Of a stretch of DNA of 64,000 nt, positions 6,779-16,642 are shown in pieces. The translations under genes were made by a program, and so were the position numbers. Under the pieces are notes generated by a model. That model saw nothing but the letters and a program-made list of their open reading frames with translations, was not told the DNA's origin and did not search any database. Location: the NCBI GenBank assembly GCA_020721005.1, contig DYNP01000013.1:1-64000 (forward strand), in the 5' to 3' direction. How positions within the stretch are numbered: the first letter of the stretch is position 1; the number at the start of each line of letters is the position of its first letter. Origin of the DNA: Thiomargarita sp. Its GTDB lineage: Bacteria; Pseudomonadota; Gammaproteobacteria; Beggiatoales; Beggiatoaceae.

Positions 6779-9700
6779 TCAATCCAACGATTTGACCCGG
6801 TCCCCAGCTTTTAATGATTCTCCCCGTTGATTTGGACTCCACACAATATCCACACTGGATTCCGCATGACTGATCTGATAATTTCCAAGGGAAGCTGCAT
6901 ACACATTGATAGACTGATGAGACTCCAAATGACAATGCTCCTTCAAATACTGCTCCTGCTCAAACAAGCGATGCTCCATTTTCCTGGCACTCACCCATTG
7001 ACAATGCGGTACAACCTCAGGATGTCGACAAATAGCCTTGATTCTCTGTAACACTGGGAATTCATTGGAATCTGGCAATACCAATATCAAATAATCCTGA
7101 GCCCGACTGATGGCCACATTGAGCACACTCTGCTGATTCAACAAACTGTTGGGATGCGAATGGACAGGAGGATTCAACACCGTGATGATCATCGGACATT
7201 CATAACCCTGAAAACTGTGTACAGTCCCTACCAATGGAGCTGGCAATCCCAACAAACGAGCTTTTAACAACTTATCCAACACATGAGCCTGAGCACTGTA
7301 AGGGCACACCACTCCCAACTGATCAGGTTTAGCCAACTCGGGATTGGCCGCCAACAAATGCACAATCAACTCCACAGTCAATAACGCCGAGTACAAATGA
7401 TAGGGACTGCTGTGAGCCAAACGTAAAGGTTGATACAATGCCTCCTCAACCAACACCGGAAACTCTATCACTGTGATTGGCGCCACCCTTTCTCCTCGCA
7501 ACCAAACCGGCGCCAACACAGGCATCGTGCGAGCATGTTGCAAACGCCCCTGATAACTTAAATGGCTATACACATGACCAATGGGCGGCAAACTTCGATA
7601 TTGCGTACCCAAAAACACAGTTTTCAAAGCCGTTGAAGTTGAAAATGGATCAAATTGCACAAAAGTATATACAGTCTCCACCTGCCATTCCCGACTCATT
7701 GCAATCGGGGCAATCTGCTCTGGATCTCCACTGAGAATAAATTGGGCTTCAGAATAACGACAAAATACATAAGCCACCCCAGCCAATAACAACATAGAAG
7801 CCTCATCAAACACAATCACATCCCAAGGCAACTCATGTAACTTCTCTTTGGAGAATACATTAAAGCCCTCATAAGTCAACCGAGCCAAAGTCGTGATCAA
7901 CGTATAACTCTGCCAATGAGACAAAGAGCCCACTGTAGTCTCCACAGTTTTCGGATTGTTCCAAGCCACCACAGTATTTTTTCCAAACCGAATCAAAGGC
8001 ACTTGCCAAACCTGAGCAATTGGAGACAACTTTTTAAACAACACATCAGCTGCCTGATTGGTCGGCGTCAACACCAAAATTTTCAACCGTTTTTTCAACA
8101 AAGGCTGAATCTTCTCCTGAACCAAATAAGTCGTTTTACCAGTGCCTGGGGGACCGATCACAAAATCCAGAGACTTGGGCAAATGAGCTGGCAATAAATA
8201 CTCATCAGGCAAACTCAAAGCGTCAAAAGCCCGTGCCAAAGCCTCCAAAATAAGCACCGGATTATGAGTCGTTAACACAACCCGTTGAACCTTGCTCAAA
8301 TCCACTGCTGGCACTGCCGACTTCAACTGCACATGGACCGTTAAACCCTTCACATACAAACTGTGCACCCCCCATTGCAAACGTTGCTGCCCCACTCCCA
8401 ATTGCAACGATAAATTAGGAGAATCCTCTATCAAATTCGGAATAGTTTGAGCAGGCAATCTGAGAATAAGTGCATAATCATTCTCTTTCTCCACAGCCCC
8501 AAAAGACAAATGAAACTGCGACCCTAGACGTTGAGTTTGTAAAGACTCATAACTCAACAATTGTTCCAACTGTAACAACAACTTAAACCACAAAAAACTG
8601 TATTTTTCCGTTGTTTGCAACTGCACCTGCAAAACCTGAATATCATTTAACCTATCCAACTGATAAGCCAACTGAGACTGCTGATCTTGCAAAACCTGAC
8701 GCCTTTTATCCAACACTTGCAAGGCAGTGCTCGTGTTAGAATTTAAAACACTTTCCCCCTTAGCCTGCTGCTGCACCAAAAACGACTGCCACTGCGTCAA
8801 CAAACTCATCGGCGCCTGCCCCTGATGCACCGCCAACTGCCACATCTGTTCCCCTAACTCATATTTATCTCGCTGTTCCTGAGTAAATTCAGGCAGATAC
8901 TGACTGACCACCCCCAACTTATCCAACAAAACCTTAGCTGCATAACTCTGGACCTCATAATGCACCGCCAACTCTGACACCACCAATTCTGCCGGTTTCA
9001 CACAATTTAATGCTGCATTGTATAACCATGCAGTTTCCTTTAATTGAGTTAAAAACTGCGATTCAAAACGATAAGTATGCAACTTACGATAAAACCACTG
9101 ATATTGCCCCTGAAACACCTCTTCTTTGGCAGTCAACGGCTGCAATAACTCCCACAATAACCTAGAATTTTCCAAACCAGGATGGGCTAAAAAGGCAGCT
9201 AAACCCTCCAAATCATAATCATAACTGAAGCCCAACTCATGAAAATGATCACGGGTACACTTATAACGACAAATTCGTTGTCTATCCTCCTTAGAAAATG
9301 GCGGTGGAATCTTAAGCAATCGAGGCTGATCAGCCACCCCCAAAGCCTGTAAAAATTCCAACCACTTGGCCTCTTCCACTTCCTCTGCAATATCCTGATA
9401 AAACTCCCGATCTAACCACTGAATACCCGTATGAAATTTAAAGTAATGAACCAAAGTCGGAGTACGTAAATACAGCTGAGCAGGTGCTTGGCGTCCCGGT
9501 TGCCGATCGGGATGAGACACACTGCGACAAAATGGCAACTGACTTAACAAATTAAGATAAGCTGTTCGTTTTTGCCAAGGACAGACCAGAAAGTAATGGA
9601 AAAACTTTTTGAAATCAGCGTGTAACGTGGAATCTGGAACAACCATTGTTTCAGAATATCGAGGAATTAGATAATAAATAATCTCTTCATATTCAGTAGG

Positions 9701-11377
9701 TTGAGTAATACCCAACGCCTGTAAAAATTGCAAAGAACGTTCATTTCCTACAAAACAGAGTTTTACCGTGGGATATTCAGAATTTTGTTCAGTGGGCAAA
9801 TACACTTGAGGATGATAACTGCCTATTGTATAAGGTGCTAGCATACGATTGTCTGCAAGACGAATGATGGGCTGGTAACGAAGTAAACTGTGTGGAGATT
9901 GCCATAAAGTTGATGCTTTTTCCAACAAATAACTGTAAAACTGGATCAGCCATTCATCCGTTTGAGCAGTAATGAAACTGATCGGAATTTTTTTGAACAG
10001 ATCGCTGGTGGTTAGCACTGTTTTGGTGGCAGTCAAGTGATCACGGACATATTTCCATAATTTGGATTGAGGAGCAAGAGTTGGAAAAACCCAGGCTGCC
10101 CCGGGAATATCCAATAATTGAGCCAATTGCTGACTGCTAACTAATTGGCTAAGCTCATGATTTTCTGCCAAATAAGCTTGTTGGGAATGTACAAAACTGC
10201 CAGTTTCGGTGGGCAATAAAGCTTGAGTTTGTAGAGTGTGTAGGACCGCTTCATAAATCGGTCTTAAACGGCTTTCTGGAGAAAAATCAGCCTCATAAGT
10301 GGGTAAGGTTTTAAAAAAAGCTTCAGTTAATAACTTGAGTTTTTTCAGCAAAGGCAGGCTGTGAGCGATCAAAGTGGCCAATTTGGCAATTAACTGTTGA
10401 TTCCAAGGGTCGTTAATTTGAATGTTTTCCCGACTGTTGGTCAATAGAAAAGGTGCTTGGAGAATAAATCCCAGATGGCTGGGGCGCTCTGTGGGAAAAA
10501 AGCAGTAAATGGGAAATTTGCGTGGTTTTTCGGTGATCAAGGGGTAGGCCACACACAATTCATAATGCAGATCGTGTAAAGCATTTTTGGGAATGTGTTG
10601 TATGAAAGCCCAAAAGTACTCTGTTTGAGTGTTATGATTGATCAATTGTTGTAAACGAATGCGTTTTGTGGTTAAATTGGGAATGGTGTGAGCCAATAAT
10701 ATGGGTTTGACATATTTGGTATAATTCCCTTCATCTCCTTGATCGGTTTGCCATTTAATTTCTGTCAAGTGGCGCAGGAATAACAAGGGATGGGTGAGGG
10801 TTTTGAGTTTTTCTAAAATAATGGCATAAGTTTCTCTGGCAGGCAATTGGCTGGAAAATGGTAATTTAAAGAGAGTTTCTCCAATTTTGCGGGCCGGGTG
10901 GTCGTTGTCTAAGCGCACGGGAACGATGAAACGTTCGATCTTAAAACAAAAAGGGGGATCGTAGATTTCTGGGGTTTCCATGTATTGAAAAATGGCTTTA
11001 AAACCAATGCCAAACTTGCCAATTTGGGCTTGGTGTTTGTTGGAGTGACCAATGGAGGTGATGGCATTGATATGACCGAGACGTTGTTGTTGGTGATCGA
11101 GGTGTTCGGTGTTTGGATCGGTGAGGGAAAAATGAATTTTGCCATTGTGAGCAAACAGTAATTCTTGGGAAGTTAAGATAAAACGGGCTTTGCTGGCTTT
11201 GGCATCGTCGGCATTTTGTAATAATTCATAGAGAAAATGAGCTTGTTCGGAATAACGTTCGATAACATGATTTTTGATGCCTTGTAGGTAAGGTTGTTCA
11301 AGCAATTGTGCCCCTTGTTGTCTGGCTAGGGAAAGTTGAGCAAATAACTGGGCTTGGGTAGGGGTTAAAGTGAGCAT
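6779..11377 (-). CDS. Fusion of HSP90/sacsin-type ATPase domain with SF1 (Upf1/DNA2-like) helicase
   Basis: A 1,532-residue cytoplasmic protein with two nucleotide-binding modules. The N-terminal GHKL domain has the N-box FLYELLQNADDAK (about 48-60), a weak G1 box FAHNG and the G2 box GKFGIGFKAIF (120-130), as in sacsin and HSP90. A middle region of about 900 residues is mostly unassigned, with a Gln-rich, coiled-coil-like part. The C-terminal SF1 helicase has GPPGTGKT (1075-1082), FDEAS (about 1190), SGDPEQIAP, QYRSLPPIG, TVHSFQGYE (about 1388) and NVAISRAQDYLILV. Proteins combining such domains are poorly characterised; a role in defence or nucleic-acid surveillance is inference. The 5' third is A+C-rich and the rest G+T-rich on its coding strand. 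It is monocistronic and divergent from the GH3 gene. Confidence 0.85.
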   Translation of the reverse strand: MLTLTPTQAQLFAQLSLARQQGAQLLEQPYLQGIKNHVIERYSEQAHFLYELLQNADDAKASKARFILTSQELLFAHNGKIHFSLTDPNTEHLDHQQQRLGHINAITSIGHSNKHQAQIGKFGIGFKAIFQYMETPEIYDPPFCFKIERFIVPVRLDNDHPARKIGETLFKLPFSSQLPARETYAIILEKLKTLTHPLLFLRHLTEIKWQTDQGDEGNYTKYVKPILLAHTIPNLTTKRIRLQQLINHNTQTEYFWAFIQHIPKNALHDLHYELCVAYPLITEKPRKFPIYCFFPTERPSHLGFILQAPFLLTNSRENIQINDPWNQQLIAKLATLIAHSLPLLKKLKLLTEAFFKTLPTYEADFSPESRLRPIYEAVLHTLQTQALLPTETGSFVHSQQAYLAENHELSQLVSSQQLAQLLDIPGAAWVFPTLAPQSKLWKYVRDHLTATKTVLTTSDLFKKIPISFITAQTDEWLIQFYSYLLEKASTLWQSPHSLLRYQPIIRLADNRMLAPYTIGSYHPQVYLPTEQNSEYPTVKLCFVGNERSLQFLQALGITQPTEYEEIIYYLIPRYSETMVVPDSTLHADFKKFFHYFLVCPWQKRTAYLNLLSQLPFCRSVSHPDRQPGRQAPAQLYLRTPTLVHYFKFHTGIQWLDREFYQDIAEEVEEAKWLEFLQALGVADQPRLLKIPPPFSKEDRQRICRYKCTRDHFHELGFSYDYDLEGLAAFLAHPGLENSRLLWELLQPLTAKEEVFQGQYQWFYRKLHTYRFESQFLTQLKETAWLYNAALNCVKPAELVVSELAVHYEVQSYAAKVLLDKLGVVSQYLPEFTQEQRDKYELGEQMWQLAVHQGQAPMSLLTQWQSFLVQQQAKGESVLNSNTSTALQVLDKRRQVLQDQQSQLAYQLDRLNDIQVLQVQLQTTEKYSFLWFKLLLQLEQLLSYESLQTQRLGSQFHLSFGAVEKENDYALILRLPAQTIPNLIEDSPNLSLQLGVGQQRLQWGVHSLYVKGLTVHVQLKSAVPAVDLSKVQRVVLTTHNPVLILEALARAFDALSLPDEYLLPAHLPKSLDFVIGPPGTGKTTYLVQEKIQPLLKKRLKILVLTPTNQAADVLFKKLSPIAQVWQVPLIRFGKNTVVAWNNPKTVETTVGSLSHWQSYTLITTLARLTYEGFNVFSKEKLHELPWDVIVFDEASMLLLAGVAYVFCRYSEAQFILSGDPEQIAPIAMSREWQVETVYTFVQFDPFSTSTALKTVFLGTQYRSLPPIGHVYSHLSYQGRLQHARTMPVLAPVWLRGERVAPITVIEFPVLVEEALYQPLRLAHSSPYHLYSALLTVELIVHLLAANPELAKPDQLGVVCPYSAQAHVLDKLLKARLLGLPAPLVGTVHSFQGYECPMIITVLNPPVHSHPNSLLNQQSVLNVAISRAQDYLILVLPDSNEFPVLQRIKAICRHPEVVPHCQWVSARKMEHRLFEQEQYLKEHCHLESHQSINVYAASLGNYQISHAESSVDIVWSPNQRGESLKAGDRVKSLD

Positions 11378-13307: not shown

Positions 13308-13333
13308 GCAGATGCACAGGATAAGAAGTCCGT

Positions 13334-13368
13334 GTAGGATGTGCTGAGCGTTGTTTGCGAAGTGCATC
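13334..13368 (-). repeat. Short interspersed palindrome, family B, copy 1
   Basis: A 35-bp sequence whose complement begins GATGCACTTCGCAAACAACG and ends CTCAGCACATCCTAC. It faces the inverted copy at 13453-13487, so together they can form a long hairpin after ruvA. Six copies occur in the window. Confidence 0.8.
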
Positions 13369-13452
13369 TGTCGCGTTTATGTCCATTCCCAATCTGCCTA
13401 ATAAATGTCAAGCACTACAAAATTATGAAAATTTGAATATTGTTCCCCGATT

Positions 13453-13487
13453 GATGCGCTTCGCAGACAACGCTCAGCACATCCTAC
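13453..13487 (+). repeat. Short interspersed palindrome, family B, copy 2
   Basis: Starts GATGCGCTTCGCAGACAACG and ends CTCAGCACATCCTAC; inverted relative to copy 1, 84 bases away. It is placed between the ruvA unit and the promoter of the kinase gene and may act as a boundary. Confidence 0.8.
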
Positions 13488-13520
13488 ACAGGATACTTTA
13501 TTATGGCGCGTAAGCCACAG

Positions 13521-13550
13521 TTGACAGTAGGAATAAATGAGCAGTAAAAT
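13521..13550 (+). promoter_or_regulatory. Sigma-70 promoter of the kinase/FGE gene
   Basis: TTGACA (13521-13526) and TAAAAT (13545-13550) with an 18-base spacer. GAGGAGAAG follows about 10 bases before the ATG at 13587, giving a short leader. Confidence 0.6.
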
Positions 13551-13586: not shown

Positions 13587-15791
13587 ATGTCTCAATCGTT
13601 AGATAAACCCTTAGACAGGGGTAAATTATTGCACCGACGTTTGATTTGTCTGTTGCTTGCTTCAATGCGGCAAGTACCTGGTTTGGGGGCAGTGGTGGAG
13701 TTGGCTATGGGATGGCAGCAGGCGGCTATGGAGTTACGTCAACAACAGGATAAGCAAAGTTTGGAGGAGCGAGTCAGTCAGTTAGAGGAGGCTATGCGTA
13801 TTCCGCCTGGGGAAATCAAGTCATTGGCGGTGGAAGTGATTGACCAGCAACGTCGCCAAGGATTGGCGATTTCTGCAGATCGTGCAAAAGCCATTGTCGA
13901 GATTGCCGGTTATTTGCCAGCCACAATTCGGGAGCGGGTGCAATCAACCTTGCATCAGGCCAGACATTATGGCACAGCACTGCAGACCGTGTTGCCCCTG
14001 GATGACAGTGCCTCTGAAATGGAGAAAAATGAGTTTGACCGCGCCTTGCTTCCCCGTCGTCGTCCCCGATTTCAAAGTGGCGACAAAGTATTGGAAGGAC
14101 CTCCTCAATGGCGACTGACTGAATTGATAGGGACCGGCAGTTTTGGAGAGGTGTGGCAGGCTTATCATCGGCAGATGAGACGTTATTTTGCAGTGAAGTT
14201 TTGTCATGATGAGGTCAGTGCTAAAATTTTGGTGCGTGAGGCTGAGACTCTGATCACATTGCATGAGCGATTGCCTGATCATCCGCAGGTGGTAAAGTTG
14301 GTGGAATTGCAATTGGAGGTCGAGCCTTATTGGTTGGCATTTGAATATGTGCAAGGTGGGACTTTGGAATCTCTGATGCGGGCTAAGCAGTTTGGTTGGC
14401 AGGAGGCAGTGCAATTGGTGGCCTCATTGTGTCGGGGGATGGCGGCTGTGCATGACATTGGGATCGTGCATCGGGATTTGAAGCCAGAGAATATTTTATT
14501 GACCGCAGAGGGAGTGCCAAGAATTACCGATTTTGGGATCGGGAAGATTATTGTAGAACAGGAGTCTAAGACACGCTTGCAAGAAGGTACTATTTTAGCT
14601 GGGGCAGGGACGCCAGTGTATGCTTCAAGCGAGCAATTAAGAGGGTTGGCAGCTGAGCCAACGGACGATGTGTATTCGTTGGGGGTGATACTGTGGCAAT
14701 TGTTGGTGCACAGTTTGGAGGTACCGCGGTATGTGAAAGTGAGTTTGCAAGAGGCATCCGCACCGATTCCAGAGGCAGTGCAGCAAATAGTCTTGTCCTG
14801 TATAGATTGTCCTCGAAAACATCGTCCTGCAAATGCAAAGGTGCTGTTGCAACAATTGGAGACCGTATTGGGAAATTCCCCGGTGCAGGCGCAACAATCC
14901 CAGCCTCAATCCCCACCTTCTAAATCCCCGCCAGTTTCAAGTCCTCAATCTGTTTCTGGCTTGGAGAGATTGCCAATTGCTCAATCGGATCCAGTGCAGA
15001 TAGAGGAATTTGAGTTTGAAGTGGTGACGGTGCAAATTGGCAAGGATGGACAGCTTAATAAGCAAACTCGTCGAGCCAAGAATACTCAATATGTTTATGA
15101 GTTGGGAAAGGGGGTGCGTTTGGAATTGGTGCATATTCCAGCCGGGGAATTTATGATGGGCTCTCCAGCAACTGAGAAAGGGCGTTACGATGATGAAGGA
15201 CCCCAACACAAGGTGAAGATAGCTCGTCCTTTTGCCATGGGTAAATACCCTATCACTCAGGCACAATATGAGGCGATTATGGGAAAGAATCCTTCCCATT
15301 TTAAGGGTGCCCAGCGTCCAGTCGAGACTGTAAGTTGGGACGAGTGCAATGAATTTCGCAAGCGCTTGTCGGAGCGTTTGGGAGTGGAATTTAAGCTGCC
15401 GAGTGAAGCGCAATGGGAATATGCATGTCGGGCCGGAACAACGACGGCTTACTCATTTGGGGATGAGGCAAGCCAATTGGGAAACTATGCGTGGTACACA
15501 GAAAATTCTGGGGAAAAAACTCACCCTGTTGGCGAAAAGAAGCCCAATGCGTGGGGTTTGTATGACATGCACGGGAATGTATGGGAATGGTGTGAGGACC
15601 TGTGGCACTCAAACTATGAAGGAGCACCCACTGATGGAAGTGCGTGGATGAGTGGAGGTACTTCTGATGAGCGTCCCCTTCGTGGGGGTTCTTGGGGCGA
15701 CTATGGCGATTGGTTGCGTTGTGCCACCCGTTATGGGGACGATTCAACTAACGGGCTCAGCAGCAGGGGTTTGCGTCTTTCCAGGATGTAA
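13587..15791 (+). CDS. Ser/Thr protein kinase fused to FGE/sulfatase-modifying-factor domain; candidate DGR target
   Basis: A 734-residue protein. Residues 1-170 are an unassigned helical region. A Hanks-type kinase follows: glycine loop GTGSFGEVW, ATP lysine in FAVKF, catalytic HRDLKPEN near 294 and DFGIG near 314. A Pro/Ser/Gln linker (about 430-480) leads to an FGE-type domain (about 505-734: IPAGEFMMGSP, LPSEAQWEYACRAGTT, GLYDMHGNVWEWCED). The last residues, 699-734, begin RGGSW and end GLRLSRM, with variable positions spaced as in C-type-lectin/FGE targets of diversity-generating retroelements. No reverse transcriptase or template repeat is in the window. The kinase probably signals from the ligand-binding FGE fold; partners are unknown. 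Confidence 0.9.
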   Translation: MSQSLDKPLDRGKLLHRRLICLLLASMRQVPGLGAVVELAMGWQQAAMELRQQQDKQSLEERVSQLEEAMRIPPGEIKSLAVEVIDQQRRQGLAISADRAKAIVEIAGYLPATIRERVQSTLHQARHYGTALQTVLPLDDSASEMEKNEFDRALLPRRRPRFQSGDKVLEGPPQWRLTELIGTGSFGEVWQAYHRQMRRYFAVKFCHDEVSAKILVREAETLITLHERLPDHPQVVKLVELQLEVEPYWLAFEYVQGGTLESLMRAKQFGWQEAVQLVASLCRGMAAVHDIGIVHRDLKPENILLTAEGVPRITDFGIGKIIVEQESKTRLQEGTILAGAGTPVYASSEQLRGLAAEPTDDVYSLGVILWQLLVHSLEVPRYVKVSLQEASAPIPEAVQQIVLSCIDCPRKHRPANAKVLLQQLETVLGNSPVQAQQSQPQSPPSKSPPVSSPQSVSGLERLPIAQSDPVQIEEFEFEVVTVQIGKDGQLNKQTRRAKNTQYVYELGKGVRLELVHIPAGEFMMGSPATEKGRYDDEGPQHKVKIARPFAMGKYPITQAQYEAIMGKNPSHFKGAQRPVETVSWDECNEFRKRLSERLGVEFKLPSEAQWEYACRAGTTTAYSFGDEASQLGNYAWYTENSGEKTHPVGEKKPNAWGLYDMHGNVWEWCEDLWHSNYEGAPTDGSAWMSGGTSDERPLRGGSWGDYGDWLRCATRYGDDSTNGLSSRGLRLSRM
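15681..15788 (+). other. Candidate DGR variable region at the 3' end of the kinase/FGE gene
   Basis: The last 36 codons encode RGGSW, LRCATR and GLRLSRM as fixed anchors around positions reading GDYGD, YGDDSTNG and SS. In known FGE-type targets those positions correspond to AAC/AAT codons in the template repeat, changed at adenines. Codons here such as GGC-GAC-TAT-GGC-GAT and AGC-AGC fit such changes. The call rests on family resemblance, because the template is not in the window. Confidence 0.55.
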
Positions 15792-15984
15792 ATCTCGGCA
15801 CTGTGTGCTTTTAACCTTTTATATCTTTTGTTTTTTGAATCTTTGTCCTTACGGACTCAAAATCTAGTAGGAAGTTGGGGGCTGGCCGGCGCGGAATTTT
15901 TATTCTACCTTAAATAGGTATAGACGCGATTAATCGCGTCTCTCGAGGCTTTAGCCGGCTAGCAGTCGGCCCTTGCCATTTTCT
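15792..15984. other. Intergenic sequence after the kinase/FGE gene, with palindrome
   Basis: No gene is visible. A perfect 20-base palindrome AGACGCGATTAATCGCGTCT lies at 15922-15941 and recurs at 16622-16641, bracketing the two transposable units. A fragment of family A arm (GAGGCTTTAGCCGG) is at about 15946-15959. The sequence just after the stop codon is where a DGR initiation sequence would be expected. Confidence 0.6.
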
Positions 15985-16258
15985 CTCGTTCCCAAGTGCC
16001 ACTTGGGAATGCAGTCTTGACCGCGTCGCGGTCAATCACTCATCAATCTACCCTCTCGTATAAACAGGATCCGCCCCAGTTGTCCCACATGATCACGCCC
16101 ACTGGAATAGTGCCAATGTTCACTCAACCCCACATAACTCCTCATTTCACCAGGCTTTGATGGAGATATTCCAGTTTCTGTAATAGCATTCCATTACCTT
16201 ATTTGTACAGGCCGCGACGCGGTCAAGACTGCATTCCCAAGTGGCACTTGGGAACGAG
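15985..16258. mobile_element. 274-bp MITE-like element with 49-bp terminal inverted repeats, copy 1
   Basis: The left end 15985-16033 (starts CTCGTTCCCAAGTGCCACTT) and right end 16210-16258 are inverted repeats matching at 48 of 49 positions. Each end contains two internal palindromes, CCAAGTGCCACTTGG and GACCGCGTCGCGGTC, like paired REP sequences. The core carries a decayed transposase fragment. Copy 2 lies 345 bases further on. Confidence 0.88.
16032..16190 (-). pseudogene. Remnant of REP-associated tyrosine transposase (RAYT), C-terminal part, copy 1
   Basis: Minus-strand translation gives LQKLEYLHQSLVK in one frame and then, after a one-base shift, MRSYVGLSEHWHYSSGRDH to a TGA at 16034-16032. 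These match in order the conserved C-terminal segments of Y1-type REP-associated transposases (YIHxNPVKxGxVxxPExWxxSSxRxY). The catalytic N-terminal half is gone and the frame is broken, so the fragment is inactive. Confidence 0.7.
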
Positions 16259-16329
16259 GCAAAGTCTTCATTCCAATTGACCGGCTAAAGCCTCCATTCC
16301 AACTGCTTACCGGCTAAAGCCTCCATTCT
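16259..16329. repeat. Family A arm fragments between the two MITE copies
   Basis: Two arms reading CCGGCTAAAGCCTCCATTC lie in the 71-base spacer between the 274-bp elements. They are partial family A sequences, as at 15946-15959. Confidence 0.7.
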
Positions 16330-16603
16330 CTCGTTCCCAAGTGCCACTTGGGAATGCAGTCTTGACCGCGTCGCGGTCAATCACTCATCAATCTACCCTC
16401 TCGTATAAACAGGATCCGCCCCAGTTGTCCCACATGATCACGCCCACTGGAATAGTGCCAATGTTCACTCAACCCCACATAACTCCTCATTTCACCAGGC
16501 TTTGATGGAGATATTCCAGTTTCTGTAATAGCATTCCATTACCTTACTTGTACAGACCGCGACGCGGTCAAGACTGCATTCCCAAGTGGCACTTGGGGAC
16601 GAG
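16330..16603. mobile_element. 274-bp MITE-like element with 49-bp terminal inverted repeats, copy 2
   Basis: Near-identical direct copy of 15985-16258; I see three base differences (in the TTACTTGTACAGACC segment and near the right end). The near identity indicates recent duplication or two recent insertions. Confidence 0.88.
16377..16535 (-). pseudogene. Remnant of REP-associated tyrosine transposase (RAYT), copy 2
   Basis: Identical in layout to the fragment in copy 1, with the same frame break after SLVK. Both copies therefore derive from one already decayed ancestor and must have moved or been duplicated with help from outside. Confidence 0.65.
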
Positions 16604-16642
16604 GCAAAGTTTAAATCCCACAGACGCGATTAATCGCGTCTA

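Follow-up and report, generated by a model that had tools for sequence, protein, structure and literature searches.

A kinase/FGE fusion gene of Thiomargarita sp. as a probable remote target of a diversity-generating retroelement

Can the 3' end of a bacterial kinase gene be rewritten by a retroelement that lies elsewhere in the genome? This question is raised by a kinase/FGE fusion gene located in the stretch of 64,000 nucleotides analysed here (the window, G000:C77:1-64000), which belongs to an assembly of 4.05 Mb in 133 pieces (99.7% complete, 0.5% contamination). Diversity-generating retroelements (DGRs) act by mutagenic reverse transcription at adenines, followed by retrohoming of the cDNA. 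The original prediction, made from a single variable region (VR), was that the end of this gene is diversified by a trans-acting DGR. Here, we describe the gene, the template repeat (TR) and reverse transcriptase (RT) that match it, and the other genes that share this template. The positions of all features are collected in Table 1.

The kinase/FGE gene and its variable region

In the 734-aa protein, the Pfam Pkinase model covers aa 177-380 (E 5e-39) and a broader model extends the kinase domain to aa 415. The motifs GTGSFGEVW at 182, FAVKFC at 201 (Lys), HRDLKPEN at 295 and DFG at 315 are all intact, and by these motifs the protein is a Hanks-type Ser/Thr kinase with putative phosphotransfer activity. 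The FGE-sulfatase match occupies aa 513-731 (E 9e-48, Pfam). PADLOC also reported matches to mad6 and PD-T4-6; in both cases it was the kinase domain that was matched, and we did not accept membership of those systems.

Just 3' of the gene, at 15981-16620, there are two direct repeats of 295 bp (98% identical) that are themselves made of inverted repeats with arms of about 50 bp, and just 5' of it, at 13323-13498, there is a 51-bp inverted repeat; the kinase/FGE target is flanked on both sides by MITE-like elements. About 2 kb away, a 1532-aa ATPase/helicase-like protein is encoded on the reverse strand (6779-11377) and matches the PADLOC TmtA models (E 2e-56), which makes this TmtA-like gene a candidate defence gene.

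Table 1. Features of the kinase/FGE gene, of its template and of the two retroelements (window positions unless a contig, C, or locus, L, is named)
Feature	Position	Strand	Remark
Sigma-70-like promoter match, 5' of kinase gene	13521..13550	+	11/12 positions; pattern match only
Kinase/FGE fusion gene, very probable remote DGR target	13587..15791	+	ORF of 734 aa; Pfam domains
Protein kinase domain, aa 177-415	14115..14831	+	Pfam Pkinase and PK_Tyr_Ser-Thr; motif positions
FGE-sulfatase / C-type-lectin-fold domain, aa 513-731	15123..15779	+	Pfam PF03781; model pLDDT 96.4; structural match TvpA
VR, counterpart of TR C133:52415-52528	15671..15784	+	19/34 adenine sites changed, 0 other bases
First block, changed codons 704-709	15696..15713	+	template AAC AAC AAT GAC AAT AGG
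Second block, variable codons 714 and 716-727	15726..15767	+	TR/VR codon comparison
Invariant VR 3' end GGTTTGCGTCTTTCCAG	15768..15784	+	same in TR and 7/7 VRs; candidate initiation-of-mutagenic-homing site
3' flank GATGTAAATCTC.GCACTGTGTGC	15785..15813	+	common to VR genes; not found after TR
Caspase/FGE target gene	L023:3255-4856		5' of avd
avd gene, intact ORF	L023:4996-5334		NCBIfam NF033474; Pfam bAvd
RT gene, intact, 354 aa	L023:5346-6410		motifs IPIGNLTSQ and YVDD
TR, 114 bp, adenine-rich, non-coding	C133:52415-52528		starts 4 bases after RT stop codon
Second DGR core, complete-looking (avd, RT, TR)	G000:C40:13599-15148 = L024:4600-6148

When the 3'-terminal sequence of the kinase gene was searched against the assembly, seven further matches were returned, one of which is non-coding and lies on contig C133. 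The prediction had placed an AAC-rich template of about 100 bp beside an RT gene somewhere outside the window; both template and RT are present in the genome, side by side on this contig. Over the 114-bp core, in which one terminal alignment column is a gap, 19 of the 34 template adenines are replaced in the window VR, while the 79 other positions counted are identical throughout (hypergeometric P 1.1e-12); the differences are thus confined to template adenines, just as had been anticipated. The replaced adenines became G in 12 cases, T in five and C in two, and by the codon table 12 changes fall on codon position 1 and seven on position 2. In the reading frame of the targets 33 of the 34 template adenines occupy codon positions 1 or 2. 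Computed from the template, 20 codons are variable, none of them is able to become a stop, and about 10^18 protein variants are possible; the window kinase has 17 of the 20 variable codons changed.

The motifs that frame the variable positions lie where they had been placed from the window alone (RGGSW at aa 699, i.e. from 15681, LRCATR at aa 710 and GLRLSRM at aa 728), and the codons named as products of adenine replacement (GGC, GAC, GGC, GAT, AGC and AGC) stand opposite AAC, AAT or GAC in the template. The variable run after RGGSW is also confirmed, with its length corrected from five residues to six consecutive codons, encoding GDYGDW, in which W709 results from a change of AGG to TGG. Similarly, the region given as 15681-15788 was the right one with the wrong start, the TR-matched core beginning 10 bp earlier; a mutated adenine at 15673 converts codon 696 from CAT to CGT. 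By analogy with other DGRs, the invariant sequence GGTTTGCGTCTTTCCAG may serve as the initiation-of-mutagenic-homing (IMH) site, and the 3' flank GATGTAAATCTC.GCACTGTGTGC could distinguish targets from template. A hairpin predicted 3' of the VR is weak.

The retroelement on contig C133, its probable targets and its relatives

The cassette on C133 has the order caspase/FGE target, avd, RT, TR. The RT carries the DGR-type GxxxSQ motif (IPIGNLTSQ) and not QGxxxSP, which is the form found in other RTs, and its YxDD motif reads YVDD. By sequence, its closest solved relative is 8ub7 (E 2e-49), which we take to be probably the Bordetella phage BPP-1 DGR enzyme. Avd scores 104 bits against a cut-off of 80 (NCBIfam NF033474), and a single-sequence search of Avd against the PDB gave no significant match. 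Judged by its avd gene, DGR-type RT and TR, the C133 element is a complete DGR. Since the TR and the window kinase lie on different contigs of the 133, the co-residence of C77 and C133 in one genome rests on binning and on the sequence match. At L023:2630-3050, 5' of the caspase/FGE target that adjoins the DGR, a unit like GGCTAAAGCCTCCATTCCAACC is repeated in tandem many times, and units similar to GGCTAAAGCCTCCATTCCAACC were found 3' of the window kinase too.

One TR matches seven targets, namely the window kinase, a caspase (Peptidase_C14) fusion, a TPR fusion and four others with N-termini that had no Pfam match. In the six other VRs 15-24 adenines are changed, again with full agreement with the TR at the 79 other sites; the adenine restriction has a P of 1e-9 to 6e-17 per gene. 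In the 102 columns 5' of the VR, the window gene differs from its paralogues at 10-24 sites (VR versus flank, Fisher P 0.005 to 5e-7). Because these 5' flanks have diverged, the absence of non-adenine changes in the VRs is not simply a matter of recent duplication, and the two observations together point to recent overwriting. It appears that in seven or more proteins encoded at scattered places, among them the window kinase, the sensor tip is rewritten by one mutation-making DGR.

In a related genome, G023, the TR is distinguished from that of G000 by six non-adenine sites and one adenine. Of the 82 non-adenine sites of this TR, 81-82 are identical in each of four G023 VRs, one of which closes a kinase/FGE fusion (718 aa); at the six non-adenine sites that separate the two TRs, all four bear the G023 bases. 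In each genome the VRs follow the TR of that genome, as expected of repeated TR-to-VR copying. That TR and VRs are homogenised in a lineage-specific way, as seen in these two genomes, is strong sequence evidence for rewriting in trans, whereby the templates would overwrite the VRs within each lineage.

The VR of the window kinase might be a frozen relic, in other words a sequence that a DGR formerly diversified and that has merely been inherited since the DGR became inactive on it. We consider this unlikely. In its favour, each target is represented by one allele, decayed RTs are found beside targets in relatives (contig C47 of G007, described below), and a published trans target of Thiohalocapsa DGR 1 has no diversity in the population (PMC10907252). 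However, a relic would hardly account for seven VRs free of non-adenine changes in genes whose flanks have diverged, or for the concerted change of TR and VRs between G023 and G000, and the RT and Avd are intact ORFs. Very improbable, and already refuted in practice by the TR comparison, is a reading without any retroelement, in which mutual gene conversion keeps the VRs similar as C-termini of FGE paralogues and ordinary positive selection diversifies them: the genes are indeed paralogous 5' of the VR as well (56-82% protein identity to the window domain), but the same conserved frame recurs in a non-coding copy next to an RT, every change falls at the adenines of this copy, and conversion among VRs leaves both this restriction and the agreement with the own-lineage TR unexplained.

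A more distant genus, represented by G007, also has a kinase/FGE fusion, which shares 53% identity with the window protein. Its VR matches a different TR, which is located on a separate contig: 13 of 24 adenines are changed, and the 101 other bases agree throughout. The combination of a kinase with a diversified FGE domain is therefore present in several genera of the family, via different DGRs. The kinase tree did not settle the orthology of the window kinase with the G007 and G047 kinases. The assembly of the window also contains a second DGR, on contig C40, for which no matching target was found anywhere in the assembly; it is either an orphan or its target falls in an assembly gap. Its RT (RT2) is 78% identical to, and an orthologue of, the RTs of G007 and G047, and the TR of those genomes matches kinase/FGE genes there (L096, L097, L109). 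RT2 orthology and these kinase/FGE targets are hints that targets may change DGR, and one idea is that the window kinase passed from the C40 DGR to the C133 DGR. In G007, the RT next to one kinase/FGE target is decayed and interrupted by several in-frame stops (L109, G007:C47:13125-13844), while an intact RT is on contig C67; the C47 target has outlived its local DGR.

Fold of the FGE domain and the proposed mechanism

A first model of the FGE domain, built from a shallow alignment, had a mean pLDDT of 64.5 and a poor VR, and was superseded by a model built with 50 family homologues (mean pLDDT 96.4). In the VIA-align list, the best solved match of the latter is TvpA of Treponema denticola (PDB 2y3c; Z 33.9, rmsd 1.7, 227 residues), with PvdO tied (Z 33.5), while catalytic FGEs reach Z 26-28 and the DGR proteins TaqVP and Mtd about 14. 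TvpA is likewise an FGE-like DGR variable protein with a C-type-lectin fold and a C-terminal VR, and in a profile alignment the window VR falls on its C-terminal segment; TvpA differs in that the solved chain is without a kinase, and the sequences match at only 29-36% identity.

A profile alignment with human FGE found no counterpart in RGGSWGDYGDWLRCATR of the catalytic cysteine pair Cys336/Cys341 that follows GGSY, and this stretch is filled by template-variable codons. Because the cysteine pair is missing and the best structural match, TvpA, is itself a DGR variable protein, the function of the modelled domain is more likely to be binding than enzymatic. That it is instead a working formylglycine-generating or related enzyme, with incidental variation, seems to us barely credible in view of these same two observations, although the Pfam FGE-sulfatase match is far over its cut-off and PvdO and the true FGEs are structurally close.

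We are thus left with the kinase/FGE gene as, very probably, a remote (trans) target of the DGR on C133. TR RNA would be copied by the RT together with Avd, with errors at template adenines, and the cDNA would take the place of the 3'-terminal part in the kinase gene and in no fewer than six further genes with an FGE domain, altering up to 20 codons of the C-type-lectin-fold domain without introducing stops. The trans process may still be running today. The variable face may bind a ligand (phages or neighbouring cells are conceivable sources), and this binding may alter the activity or substrate choice of the fused kinase, for which the diversified domain would act as the sensor, as originally proposed. 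A single retroelement would thereby tune a set of sensors with different outputs.

Comparison with known DGRs and meaning for the family

The closest parallels come from cyanobacteria, in which kinase-CLec and caspase-CLec proteins are remote DGR targets (PMC7517822). As in our case, a Hanks-type Ser/Thr kinase is joined to a C-terminal C-type-lectin domain with the VR at the 3' end of the gene, there are several remote targets per DGR, and orthocaspase and TPR fusions occur among them. Vallota-Eastman et al. (2020) proposed that ligand binding by kinase-CLec proteins changes kinase activity or substrate choice (PMC7517822). The cyanobacterial systems belong to another phylum, and remote targets were assigned there at >=50% TR or VR identity, whereas here no counted non-adenine site separates any of the seven VRs from the TR, and TR and VRs co-evolve between two genomes.

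Thiohalocapsa PB-PSB1 (PMC10907252) is also a sulfur bacterium of the Gammaproteobacteria and has several DGRs, FGE/CLec domains and effector-type fusions, and its trans targets were likewise inferred from a perfect non-adenine match. It differs in that population diversity was measured there, while the present case is known from one allele per target, and in that here one TR serves seven dispersed targets. DGR proteins were regarded by Dore et al. (2024) as putative antigen sensors in multicellular bacteria (PMC10907252). The prototype, the DGR of Bordetella phage BPP-1, shares the cassette of avd, RT and TR, but acts in cis on a phage tail protein, whereas the window target is remote and cellular.

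In the open-access main texts covered, DGRs in Thiomargarita or its family appear as passing mentions, apart from the Beggiatoa VMAP conflict systems (PMC7159879); a DGR link is reported there for about 80% of the VMAP systems in Gammaproteobacteria. A large metagenome survey would, by its own statement, miss remote targets (PMC8144416), so their number is probably underestimated.

A wider reading, which we offer tentatively and regard as possible rather than probable, is that one DGR gives at least seven proteins (kinase, caspase, TPR and others) one continually rewritten recognition module, i.e. a pooled, immune-like sensor repertoire. Targets may also switch retroelement over time, since the kinase/FGE genes of related genera use different DGRs. 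The design itself is already known in cyanobacteria and other multicellular bacteria, and the present locus is a clear new example of it. What had been expected from a single VR was borne out in the rest of the genome, by a trans-acting DGR with a template matching the kinase and six further genes, and the kinase-lectin design is extended from cyanobacteria to the family of sulfur bacteria that contains Thiomargarita.
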